Positions 31,135 to 63,641 of a stretch of DNA of 64,000 bases are shown here, in pieces. The notes under the pieces were generated by a model. The model ran no database searches, had not been told where the DNA came from, and saw nothing but the letters and a program-made list of their open reading frames with translations. Position 1 is the stretch's first letter, and every line of letters starts with the position of its first letter. The position numbers and the translations under genes were made by a program. This DNA is from Sphingobacteriaceae bacterium (GTDB taxonomy: Bacteria > Bacteroidota > Bacteroidia > B-17B0 > Aurantibacillaceae): assembly GCA_947480015.1 (NCBI GenBank), contig CANKBS010000005.1:62001-126000 (forward strand). Reading direction: 5' to 3'.

Positions 31135-31200
31135 TTTTTTTTGGAAAAAATTAAAGAAGATAAAAACTGCCTATTAATTTTTTCAAATTTTTATTATTTT

Positions 31201-31288
31201 GGGCGCCCGGGCGGGCCACTTTGGGCTCGGCTTTCGCCTCGGTTTCCGCCGAAGGAGCGGAGAACCAAGCCCGCCGTGTCCCTGGCGC
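31201..31288 (+). repeat. Modular hairpin element, compact copy A
   Basis: Starts GGGCGCC (31201-31207) and ends TCCCTGGCGC (31288). The end words GCGCC and GGCGC are complementary and can close the element. An internal stem pairs 31241-31249 with 31257-31266 (GGTTTCCGC/GCGGAGAACC). It lies in the dapD 3' region. It belongs to the same family as the copies at 32.8, 37.6, 43.8, 48.1 and 63.4 kb. Confidence 0.75.
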
Positions 31289-31565
31289 AAGTATCCATAA
31301 TCTTAGATTTTTATTTGTTTCATTTTAAATTTTGAAGCAACAATTTTTAGAAAAATAATTGGTCAAAAAAATTCACGCAAATTCCGGTGCAATTTTTTTT
31401 CTGAATTCAAAACGTGCTGGATTTCAATGCGCGAATTACTGAGGCCATGGACAGTAGTGGACATTATTCAGTTAATCATTCTAAAATACTGATTCACTAA
31501 GTATAAATTAAATATGTTTTATGATTCTAATATAAATTAATACCTTACCTAAATAAACCAAAATC

Positions 31566-32753
31566 ATGAGATCATTTAATATAGTTATTGCAAGTCTGTT
31601 GTTGCTTTGTCTTACAAATTCGTACAGCCAAAACAGAAGTATAAATTTTGATCACAGTGATTGGAAGTCCTTGCTGGCTAAAGCTAAGGAAACAAATAAA
31701 TTAGTATTTGTAGATTGTTATACCACCTGGTGCGGACCCTGCAAATGGATGGCCGCCAATGTATTTACCAACGATAGCATTGCCGATTTTTACAATGCCA
31801 ATTTTATTAATGCAAAAATAGATATGGAAAAAGGCGAGGGCCTTGAAATAGCCAAGCAATATGGCATTCAGGCTTATCCGACGTTTATTTATGTGAATGG
31901 TGATGGTACATTAATTTATAGACTCTGTGGATCGAGTCCGGTTAAGTATTTTTTAGAAGCTTCACAAAATGCCCAGGTGCCCGAAAAACAATTTGCCACA
32001 GCTGAGAAAAATTTCAACAAAGGTAACTGTAGTGGAGCACAAGCTATTCAATACCTAAGCACTTTGGAAGAGGCTTGTATGGAATCTGCCGGGCCTGCAA
32101 AATTATATTTTACTACGCAAAAAGAAAGCGATTACAGTTCAACAACAAATTGGAAAATACTATATTTCTTTGTGAGTGACTACGATTCGCCGCCATTACA
32201 ATACTTCGAAAAAAATCAAAGTCTTTTTTCAAAATTGTACACGGCCGATTCGGTCAACCAAAAACTAAAATCAGTTTACGCAAATGGCTTGTATAAGTGC
32301 ATTGAAAAATCAGACTTCGCTGCTTACGAAACACTCAAAACGAAATTAAAAAAATCAGGAGCCAAACATGTGGAGGAGCTTGTTGCGGAAACAGATTTGT
32401 ATCGTTATCGTAAAAATGCCGACTGGACGAATTATGCATTAACAGCTATTAGTTACGTTGAAAAATTTGTAGGGGATAATGCAGACAAGTTGAATAATTG
32501 CGCTTGGACATTTTATGAGCATGTAGATAACAAGGCGCAATTAGAAAAAGCCTGCAAATGGGCAAAGACTGCGAGTGAAAAAAGTAAGATGTATGCAGAA
32601 ACCGATACCTATGCAGCTTTGCTTTTTAAATCCGGAAAATTAGCAGAAGCCAAAACCCAAGCTCAATCAGCCATTGAACGCGCCAAAAAAGAAAATTCAG
32701 AGTTTGACGAAACGCAAAAGTTGTTGGATAAAATAAATGCGGCGATCAAATAG
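31566..32753 (+). CDS. Thioredoxin-domain protein, exported
   Basis: A 395-residue protein: signal peptide at 1-22 (ending SYSQ), a thioredoxin-like domain at about 28-140 with active site TTWCGPCKWM (Cys56, Cys59) and cis-Pro segment QAYPTFIYVN, then a C-terminal helical, TPR-like region (about 145-395). The type is that of the periplasmic thioredoxin_7/DUF255-like proteins of Bacteroidota, probably oxidoreductases or disulfide handlers acting on partner proteins bound by the helical part. It starts 277 bases after the hairpin element, with no clear operon partner. Confidence 0.85.
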   Translation: MRSFNIVIASLLLLCLTNSYSQNRSINFDHSDWKSLLAKAKETNKLVFVDCYTTWCGPCKWMAANVFTNDSIADFYNANFINAKIDMEKGEGLEIAKQYGIQAYPTFIYVNGDGTLIYRLCGSSPVKYFLEASQNAQVPEKQFATAEKNFNKGNCSGAQAIQYLSTLEEACMESAGPAKLYFTTQKESDYSSTTNWKILYFFVSDYDSPPLQYFEKNQSLFSKLYTADSVNQKLKSVYANGLYKCIEKSDFAAYETLKTKLKKSGAKHVEELVAETDLYRYRKNADWTNYALTAISYVEKFVGDNADKLNNCAWTFYEHVDNKAQLEKACKWAKTASEKSKMYAETDTYAALLFKSGKLAEAKTQAQSAIERAKKENSEFDETQKLLDKINAAIK

Positions 32754-32828
32754 AGTTTTGAAATTTTAAGTTCAAAAATAAAAACGCCAATAATTTTAGT
32801 ATAAGAATTTTCTAAGTAACGGATTTCT

Positions 32829-32971
32829 GCGCAATGGGATGTGCAGGGTTTAGTTCTTTTTTGCCGCTTGCCTCTTTAGCGGCAAAAAAAACCGCAGCGC
32901 AGCGGAGCCCGGAGCAGCCCGGTCACGAGCAGGCTTCAGGGAAAAATAGGAGGCCTGCTCGTGAGGCGCCC
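32829..32971 (-). repeat. Modular hairpin element, copy B
   Basis: Minus-strand orientation. Starts GGGCGCC (at 32971, read downwards) and ends near GCGC (32829-32832). A variable 12-bp stem (32923-32934 with 32953-32964, loop 18) and an 11-bp stem TTTTTTGCCGC/GCGGCAAAAAA (32857-32867 and 32879-32889) are perfect. It lies between the 3' ends of the thioredoxin gene and cmk, 24 bases from the cmk stop. Confidence 0.8.
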
Positions 32972-32994
32972 AAATGATAAAGTCAACTCTCAGA

Positions 32995-37018: not shown

Positions 37019-37356
37019 GTACTTTTGCCTTGATGCTTCGACAGGCTCAGCACAAGTGCAAAAAGTACCAAAAAATCAAGGCTTCAGAAATTATCGCGGA
37101 AATCTGCGAAGGCTTTGAGCCAGCGATTTGATCATACTCTTCCGCTTTCAAATTATTAGGGTGGCGGAAGAGTAGCAAATCGCTTACGCACAAGCCGGCA
37201 AAAAAAGCATGCTCAAACCTGCGTGTGCCTAAGTAACAATCTCACGCCTAGCTCGCTCAAGAGCCCACAGGGCTCTTGCCGTACACCCGCATTCAAAGCC
37301 TTCGCGATTTCCAAGCGAGAATTTCTGAGGCCGACCCGCGTGATGGGCTAGCGCGG
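37019..37356. repeat. Large modular hairpin element (copy G) with nested stems
   Basis: A 39-base arm at 37080-37118 is repeated inverted at 37293-37332 with few changes. Inside are AGCGATTTG/CAAATCGCT with ACTCTTCCGC/GCGGAAGAGT nested within it, and CAAGAGCC/GGGCTCTTG. A 5' hairpin (37019-37028 with 37058-37068) has TGCTTCGACAGGCTCAGCAC in its loop region. The end word GCTAGCGCGG resembles the end of copy F. No reading frame. Confidence 0.7.
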
Positions 37357-37384
37357 TAAGTTCAGCAATTTAGTTTCACAAAAA

Positions 37385-37436
37385 GATTTCCAAGTGAGAG
37401 TTTCTGAGGCCGGACCATGAGAGGTGCTAGCGCGGT
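37385..37436. repeat. Partial direct copy of element G end
   Basis: About 52 bases starting GATTTCCAAGTGAGAGTTTC and ending GCTAGCGCGG repeat 37305-37356 with about ten differences. The rest of the element is not repeated. Confidence 0.6.
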
Positions 37437-37582: not shown

Positions 37583-37724
37583 GCGCCATGGGATGTGAAG
37601 GGTTTAGTTCTTTTTTGCCGCTTGCCTCTTTAGCGGCAAAAAAAACCGAAACGAAGTGGAGCCCGGAGCAGCCCGGTCCCAATCAGGCTTCCGAAAAAAA
37701 GAAGAGCCTGATTGGGAGGCGCCC
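37583..37724 (-). repeat. Modular hairpin element, copy C
   Basis: Nearly the same as copy B outside the variable hairpin. Its variable stem pairs 37677-37688 with 37706-37717: TCCCAATCAGGC/GCCTGATTGGGA, with 12 of 12 pairs, while B has TCACGAGCAGGC/GCCTGCTCGTGA. Changes are compensated on both sides. The 11-bp stem 37611-37621/37633-37643 is identical to B. It lies 84 bases past the stop of the lipoprotein pseudogene. Confidence 0.8.
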
Positions 37725-43825: not shown

Positions 43826-43998
43826 GAGCGCTAGGGATAGGGTAGCAAGCCTGTGGCTTGATGAGCCAGCTTGTGTGACAGCTTTAGCTCTTTTTCAGCG
43901 GTTTTTTCTACCGCTGAAAAAAGCCGAGCAGGGCAGCAAGCCATTGGCTTGATGAGCCAGACTGTGCATAGAGCCCGGCGCAGCCCGCCCGAGCGCCC
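43826..43998 (-). repeat. Modular hairpin element, copy D
   Basis: Minus-strand orientation: starts GGGCGCT (at 43998), ends TATCCCTAGCGCTC (43826). The closing pair is GCGCT/AGCGC, compensated relative to GCGCC/GGCGC in other copies. The internal 12-bp stem pairs 43891-43902 with 43910-43921. Two CTGGCTCA modules each contain the stem CAAGCC/GGCTTG (43846-43851/43855-43860 and 43937-43942/43946-43951). It fills the gap between two convergent genes. Confidence 0.75.
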
Positions 43999-48097: not shown

Positions 48098-48196
48098 GGG
48101 CGCCCGGGCGGGCTGCTCCGGGCTCCACTTCGTTTCGGCTTTTTGGCCGCAAAGATGCAGGGGCCAAAAGAGCTAAACCCTTTACATCCCTGGCGC
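48098..48196 (+). repeat. Modular hairpin element, compact copy E
   Basis: Starts GGGCGCC, ends TCCCTGGCGC (48196). The internal stem TTTTGGCC/GGCCAAAA (48141-48148/48162-48169) replaces TTTTTTGCCGC of copies B and C with a compensated sequence. The remaining core GGGCTGCTCCGGGCTCC...GAGCTAAACCCT is shared with B and C. It follows nusB. Confidence 0.75.
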
Positions 48197-63363: not shown

Positions 63364-63641
63364 GGGCGCCTCCCCCTGAAGCAGAAAGGCTTTGGGTAAT
63401 TTTGGATAACCTTTCGCTTCAGGGGGCCCTGCAACCGCACAATCTGGCTCAAAAGTTCACCGAACTTTTGCCCTGCTGTATCCCGCTTGCCCTAACTAAG
63501 AGCGGGTAATTTGCTGCGGTGTCTTTGCCCTAAGGGTCAAAGCCACGCACCAGCCGGCTCAAAAGTTTACAAAACTTTTGCCCTGCCCAAAACCCGCTCT
63601 AAGTCAGGTCTTCACGGGGATGCCGCTCCGGTCAGTGGCGC
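63364..63641 (+). repeat. Modular hairpin element, large copy F
   Basis: 278 bases. Starts GGGCGCC and ends with GGCGC (63641), so the ends can pair. The first variable stem pairs 63372-63389 with 63410-63426 (about 17 bp with one bulge). Two CTGGCTCA-type modules carry the stems AAAAGTT/AACTTTT (63451-63457/63463-63469) and AAAAGTTT/AAACTTTT (63461... 63561-63568/63572-63579). Further stems: CCCGCT/AGCGGG and CTTTG-CCC/GGG-CAAAG-like. It follows ilvE. Confidence 0.7.

Follow-up and report, generated by a model that had tools for sequence, protein, structure and literature searches.

The window, the whole 64-kb stretch of DNA that we analysed, belongs to a genome of 3.77 Mb in 66 contigs (G000) and contains several copies of a hairpin repeat in the gaps between its genes. 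This hairpin-repeat family is real. Twenty window proteins were scanned, and the neighbours of the element include core genes (dapD-like, cmk, purA, lgt, a formyltransferase, and a NusB-like gene). The features of the window are as follows.

31135..32994, no strand assigned: dapD-cmk stretch, with a thioredoxin-domain gene (31566-32753) between copies A and B
31201..31288, plus strand: copy A, short form with a diverged core (GGGCCACTTTGGGCTC) and a whole-length model match
32829..32971, minus strand: copy B, long first hairpin; head at 32965-32971, core at 32905-32920, tail GCGC at 32829
37583..37724, minus strand: copy C, long first hairpin; 85% identity to copy B over 159 nt
43826..43998, minus strand: copy D, additional hairpin modules within internal loops; partial model match at 43881-43941
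48098..48196, plus strand: copy E, short form with an exact core and a whole-length model match
63364..63428, plus strand: copy F of the preliminary description, head and first hairpin only; incomplete element without a model match

The preliminary description counted six copies in the window. Five are complete (31201, 32829, 37583, 43826, and 48098), and for these the observation was sound. At 63364, the GGGCGCC head and first hairpin are followed by other hairpin modules, and the core and the GGCGC tail were looked for there and not found, nor was there a model match. The shared core reported for most copies, GGGCTGCTCCGGGCTC, is exact in three window copies, with one mismatch in 43826 and four in 31201, and both orientations do occur (A and E on the plus strand; B, C, and D on the minus strand). 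Model R1 gave a full-length match to four of the five complete copies and matched part of 43826; its match to 32829 and 37583 bypasses the long first hairpin and the true head. What the description underestimated is the extent of the family, a structured repeat found across phyla. A second hairpin module, GCTGGCTCA-stem-TGCCCTGC with a variable stem, was seen as one to three insertions inside element loops, with sites at 43826-43998 and 63428-63586 of the window and at loci L014, L016, and L025. Other intergenic repeat families (TTTCCAAGCGAGAATTTCTGAGGCC type, CTGAGCCTGTCGAAG, and GCCTTGATTTTTTGGTACTTTT) often lie downstream of the element (window 37306-37357 and 37385-37436; loci L007, L014, L017, and L085).

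The repeat has a size of 90-170 nt, with 78-218 nt in the copies that we read. From 5' to 3', the front part consists of GGGCGnn, an optional variable hairpin, GGGCTGC-TCC-GGGCT, and a small hairpin, and the rear part of a variable hairpin (with a T-run and an A-run in G000) and ..CCC-..CRCAT-CCC-T-nnCGC. Some copies, such as 43826, have further hairpin modules in internal loops. In the proposed fold, the terminal GGGCGnn would pair with nnCGC and the inner stem GGG-C-TG with CA-T-CCC, and one or more hairpins of variable sequence would branch off the inner stem.

We evaluated this pairing in 122 distinct copies, selected by anchors that leave open whether the tested bases pair. At the ends of the element, the two variable pairs were Watson-Crick in 97% and 95% of the copies, against means of 47% and 36% (maxima 60% and 48%) in the shuffled control. 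The first two inner pairs reached 98% and 93% (83% and 75% when shuffled), and the third showed no excess over chance in the 122 copies (61%; shuffled 53%, maximum 61%). In 39 of 55 distinct copies, the arms of the first hairpin pair over at least seven bases; swapping arms between copies lowers this to 6.4%. The tested copies are kin, hence these pairing counts do not represent independent events. The main pair types recur across different phyla. The compensated stems described from the window thus stand up, and selection on the structure of the element is strongly supported.

The 16-base core with up to two mismatches occurs at 47 sites in G000, and the reversed pattern, used as a control, at none. 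A covariance model built from 13 short copies of G000 and relatives found 45 places in G000 at E <=0.01 (150 of 1402 candidates scored), and merging of the two lists gave a total of about 66 copies. The two bases preceding GGGCG are T in all of 39 G000 copies. Within G000 subfamilies, similarity in the upstream flank beside the head ends after about 30 nt and similarity downstream extends at least 150 nt beyond the GGCGC tail. The collected copies provide a ready covariance model with which to annotate the intergenic DNA of many Bacteroidota genomes.

Complete copies with the covarying ends GGGCGnn...nnCGC were found in Bacteroidota, Spirochaetota, Planctomycetota, Fibrobacterota, and proteobacterial plasmids. 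A tail-pattern scan of named genomes gave at least 117 stretches, many of which are chance matches. Among the matches listed, complete copies come under titles with the names Chryseobacterium, Chitinophaga, Sphingobacteriaceae, Cyclobacteriaceae, Shiella, Moheibacter, Treponema, Leptospiraceae, Kuenenia, Fuerstiella, Tautonia, Rhodopirellula, Fibrobacterota, Chitinivibrionales, and others; many carrier records are metagenome bins, and single cases may be contamination. The tail pattern was present in 22 of 247 genomes of the class, and 14 of these 22 have a head (exact or one-off) together with the core in a fetched locus (a fifteenth candidate, G232, was chance-like and dropped; the sole locus of G061 has no head). 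A first class-wide model search, with 16 candidates scored per genome, matched eight of the 247. In Flavobacterium and Pedobacter, GGGCGTT repeats of a similar kind are common. Two phage queries gave no match, and viral contigs gave 12 pattern stretches, including one complete element (L412).

Relatives of G000 revealed larger units. G099, from another family of the same class, has 195 tail matches; 40 elements were read on the stretches fetched from it, and 26 of them are in close pairs. The neighbour pairs no more than 900 nt apart number 13, each of them tail-to-tail with a near-fixed spacing of 252-346 nt. When ten doublets were aligned, all ten started with GGGCG and nine ended with CGCCC, and the sequences outside were unrelated save for T-/A-rich edges. 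Twelve copies were found in G129 and 11 were examined (one lies at a contig edge), of which seven have an inverted, diverged partner opposite them at a distance of about 110 nt and four are single. In these two genomes, the element forms one of the two ends of a longer unit. Pairing in G000 is loose: the 13 neighbour pairs less than 6 kb apart, taken from 15 contigs listed by hand, comprise six tail-to-tail, six direct, and one head-to-head. An autonomous parent element was considered and rejected; the adjacent tail-to-tail G000 copies examined flank ordinary, unrelated genes.

The element is also present at some orthologous sites and absent from others. One G099 doublet (489 nt between outer ends) lies within a 605-nt gap between aligned blocks; the blocks adjoin directly in G129, and 83 nt separate them in G061. 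The next gap holds a doublet in G099, an element tail in the G061 sequence shown, and none in the G129 sequence shown. Such differences could also be explained by loss. The intergenic sequence at the sites in these three genomes is too diverged to resolve a base-exact empty site or a target duplication. In G000, the gap between dapD and cmk is convergent and 1860 nt long. It was fetched from 15 of 39 other genomes searched, and 14 congeners were counted after exclusion of G401, where it is rearranged. The congener gaps measure 29-1678 nt (29-86 nt in five), several hold other genes that differ by species, and none of the 14 contains an element (GGGCG test) or the thioredoxin-domain gene of G000 (tblastn). 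Given these varied lengths, other genes, and lack of the element, the dapD-cmk gap is an insertion hotspot, and copies A and B are specific to G000 among the genomes examined.

We read the family as a non-autonomous mobile hairpin element that acts as folded single-stranded DNA and is moved in trans by an enzyme, a reading to which we give an even chance. The best reading of its behaviour is that of a large REP/REPIN. The doublets of near-fixed spacing, their sharp outer ends, and the presence or absence at orthologous sites agree with the general idea, raised in the preliminary description, of a hairpin substrate mobilised in trans. Once single-stranded, the strand complementary to the GGGCG orientation would most likely fold and be recognised by its shape, and single-stranded DNA would be the active form. 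Copying or movement in trans would involve either single elements or tail-to-tail doublets, the latter bounded by TTT then GGGCG at one end and by CGCCC then AAA at the other, and the element would persist at gene 3' ends, where it would do least harm. A trans-acting enzyme presumably exists, and our searches for a mobilising enzyme of the hairpin element found none.

Folding calculations bear on the choice of strand. Under DNA parameters, 107 of the 122 copies fold better on the strand complementary to GGGCG and 13 on the other, with two ties (34 to 4 in G000 and 73 to 9 in other genomes), and RNA parameters likewise point to the complementary strand (94 to 28). One shuffle per copy leans toward it as well (77 to 43), so the preference is partly one of composition. 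For 32829 and 37583, the minimum-energy fold of the complementary strand gives the proposed branches (z -5.0 and -5.3), the other strand reaching z -4.0 and -4.8. The two short copies fold weakly on either strand (z -1.4 and -2.1; -1.1 and -1.3), and single mismatches inside stems gave no strand call (eight G-T versus ten A-C).

Placement was scored for 66 copies from G000 and relatives, and a simple ORF rule identified the neighbours on both sides for 61 of them. Convergent gaps hold 26 of these, tandem gaps 33, and divergent gaps two. Convergent and divergent gaps are about equally numerous in a genome, so 26 against two is a strong avoidance of divergent gaps. The earlier statement that copies always lie past a 3' end and never between divergent starts was nearly right, the two divergent cases being the exception. 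This placement presumably reflects selection against promoter damage. No family was shared at more than four loci among 519 neighbour ORFs.

The same placement would suit a structured RNA in 3' untranslated regions (a terminator, a 3'-end stabiliser, or a small RNA) that has spread through its usefulness. The conserved base pairing, the position 3' of genes, and the strand preference under RNA parameters are consistent with such an RNA. In some G000 copies a small hairpin precedes a T-run, as in an intrinsic terminator, and four of the 29 terminator-like sites found between 30000 and 49000 (18.4 expected) fall inside elements. However, the copies in tandem gaps are 12 sense and 21 antisense, which speaks against the general sense-RNA or terminator role that had been proposed; a sense bias apparent by eye in the window alone vanished in this larger sample. 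The T-run is absent from most other taxa, and doublets with sharp outer ends would be unnecessary for an RNA. Rfam was searched with the window at the gathering score and with 8 and 10 loci at E <=5 and <=1, and nothing above cut-off lay over an element; the one overlap was at chance level (L052, 20.3 bits of 100, E 2.2). On this balance, we consider an RNA role unlikely. The preliminary description had not recognised the family and had named a catalogued match as grounds for refutation; Rfam, as described, gave none above cut-off. A literature search conducted mostly outside subscription journals likewise yielded no description in which we recognised the element, and PMC2267715 contains none of six taxon names looked for in it. 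Near one element, a histidine-leader match was noted at L018 1784-1886 on the minus strand (33.8 bits, below the cut-off of 49).

A second alternative is an attC-like site of a tyrosine recombinase, part of an integron-like system that would be intact in Planctomycetes and survive as scattered relics elsewhere. Like attC, the element would have a folded single strand, variable loops, and conserved arms, and its complementary strand folds better, just as attC recombines through its bottom strand (PMC8352920). In G267 (9.2 Mb), a single 127-kb contig carries four of the five tail matches, all past and in line with a tyrosine recombinase gene; this same-strand series, on G267:C9, has no counterpart in G000. 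Comparable same-strand cases occur in G268, G269, and G270, all four genomes having been chosen via element loci. The integron idea seemed strong until 28 recombinase loci fetched regardless of elements were checked: at one (L428), an element follows on the same strand after about 170 nt, and none lies near the other 27. Three second recombinase contigs of the same planctomycete genomes are also without an element. The recombinase clade is absent from the Bacteroidota carriers searched (best 24-36% identity), and against the integron-integrase model TIGR02249 (cut-off 265) three planctomycete recombinases reach 52-66 bits. The ends of attC run AAC...GTT (R box order RYYYAAC ... GTTRRRY), whereas those of the element run in the opposite order, GTT...AAC (GGGCGTT ... 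AACGC by inspection). Unlike attC, the element is accompanied by no integron integrase and by no cassette arrays in Bacteroidota, and the G000 copies sit in unrelated gaps rather than in arrays. The link between element and recombinase in Planctomycetes is a real but partial association, and we regard an attC-like origin of the family as improbable.

Several observations were made at these planctomycete loci. The tyrosine recombinase clade, far under the integron-integrase cut-off, is represented at L126, L148, L214, L249, L250, L263, and L428. At G267:C9 39718-88864 (L280-L283) there is another hairpin repeat, CACGGCGTCAAGG...CCTTGACTTGCCGTG, in six copies; all share the strand of the elements, and none precedes the recombinase. 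Six of ten neighbour genes of planctomycete elements, chosen by eye, match PADLOC defence models, one of them weakly.

The element is present on conjugative plasmids. Matches to a pALIDE201 copy were found in 14 plasmid records, usually at two sites per record; 12 records match over most of the query and 11 are typed as conjugative. The plasmid copies belong to several Betaproteobacteria. On pALIDE201 and a Denitratisoma plasmid, the copies read share the strand of radC, kleA, and DUF932 near the MOBF relaxase region, and ssb is among the same-strand leading-region-type genes on the latter. The two copies of the pALIDE201 group would fit a leading-region single-strand element, a promoter or priming site of the Frpo/ssi kind, which would travel on conjugative DNA and leave the chromosomal copies as by-products. 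A planctomycete copy precedes an ORF that we take to be ArdC-like, and the leading-region-type genes would have the better-folding strand as their template. Similar to Frpo/ssi single-strand promoters (PMC11541004), the element is folded, oriented with genes, and placed beside leading-region-type genes on some conjugative plasmids; unlike them, it is mostly chromosomal and has promoter hexamers in none of six copies. These were plasmid and planctomycete copies, and neither strand contained a -35/-10 pair with up to two mismatches per hexamer and a spacing of 15-19. Chromosomal copies, of which G099 and G129 have about a hundred or more, would also be left unexplained, and it is doubtful that this explanation applies to the family.

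The best-known high-copy bacterial hairpin repeats are explained by Y1 transposases. As in REPIN/REP-RAYT systems (PMC3116915 and PMC6006769), the element forms short intergenic hairpin repeats in many copies with compensatory stem changes, and it occurs as singles and as inverted doublets of preferred spacing, strongly so in G099 and much more weakly in G000. It differs from them in being multi-branched and 78-218 nt long, where a REP has 20-40 nt, and in ending with GGGCG, where the REP foot is GTRG (same sources). Y1 (PF01797) matches were found in 13 of 23 carrier genomes; one of the 13 is G274, which has six of them alongside 42 tail matches. The other ten gave no match (G024, G016, G099, G129, G061, G230, G070, G244, G273 of the Leptospiraceae, and G275, a Treponema); these are drafts, G099 being 91% complete, and they include the three genomes of one genus with 27-195 tail matches, among them G099, which has the most copies. 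Since G099 is without a Y1 transposase, RAYTs cannot be the general mobiliser, and Y1 enzymes may still play a role in some lineages. PMC6006769 describes "atypical secondary structures" on the flanks of subclass 2.6 Y1 genes from Bacteroidetes, and some of these repeats could be the hairpin element. REPIN-like doublets notwithstanding, the mobilisation by a REP-type Y1 transposase suggested in the preliminary description is very unlikely, and we rejected it as a general explanation, given the Y1-free carriers and a sole G000 Y1 gene surrounded by a different repeat. That gene (L031, G000:C37:539-883) is not flanked by the hairpin element in G000. Its motif, YIQNQEEHH, fits the signature Y---Q--HH given for subclass 1.2 (PMC6006769), and it lies amid GCTCCGTAGGAGC-type hairpin repeats, which are probably its own REPs.

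Our preferred reading of a mobile hairpin element moved in trans shares features with MITEs, which are likewise non-autonomous and intergenic, with inverted ends as seen in the doublets. The ends of the element covary between subfamilies, whereas a MITE keeps one transposase site. No parent transposase was found in the stretches read, and no target duplication could be resolved in the diverged intergenic sequence. Taken more broadly, and tentatively, the copies on conjugative plasmids, at planctomycete recombinase loci, and on Bacteroidota and Spirochaetota chromosomes might possibly form a new class of single-stranded DNA element: the shape of one folded strand would be recognised, the element would spread between cells on conjugative DNA, and its amplification as REPIN-like doublets would be the work of an enzyme family distinct from both Y1 transposases and integron integrases. 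Roughly 195 tail matches occur in a Y1-free draft genome, the fold is conserved between phyla, and conjugative plasmids carry copies. The family raises the testable question of which enzyme spreads the element and whether that enzyme acts on folded single-stranded DNA.

Two further loci contained below-cut-off RNA matches. In a Treponema bin (L102 1712-1899), TD-1 and TD-2 matches lie 60-100 nt past an element, and in a Cyclobacteriaceae bin (L164 1364-2913) there are seven consecutive matches to Acido-Lenti-1 RNA.
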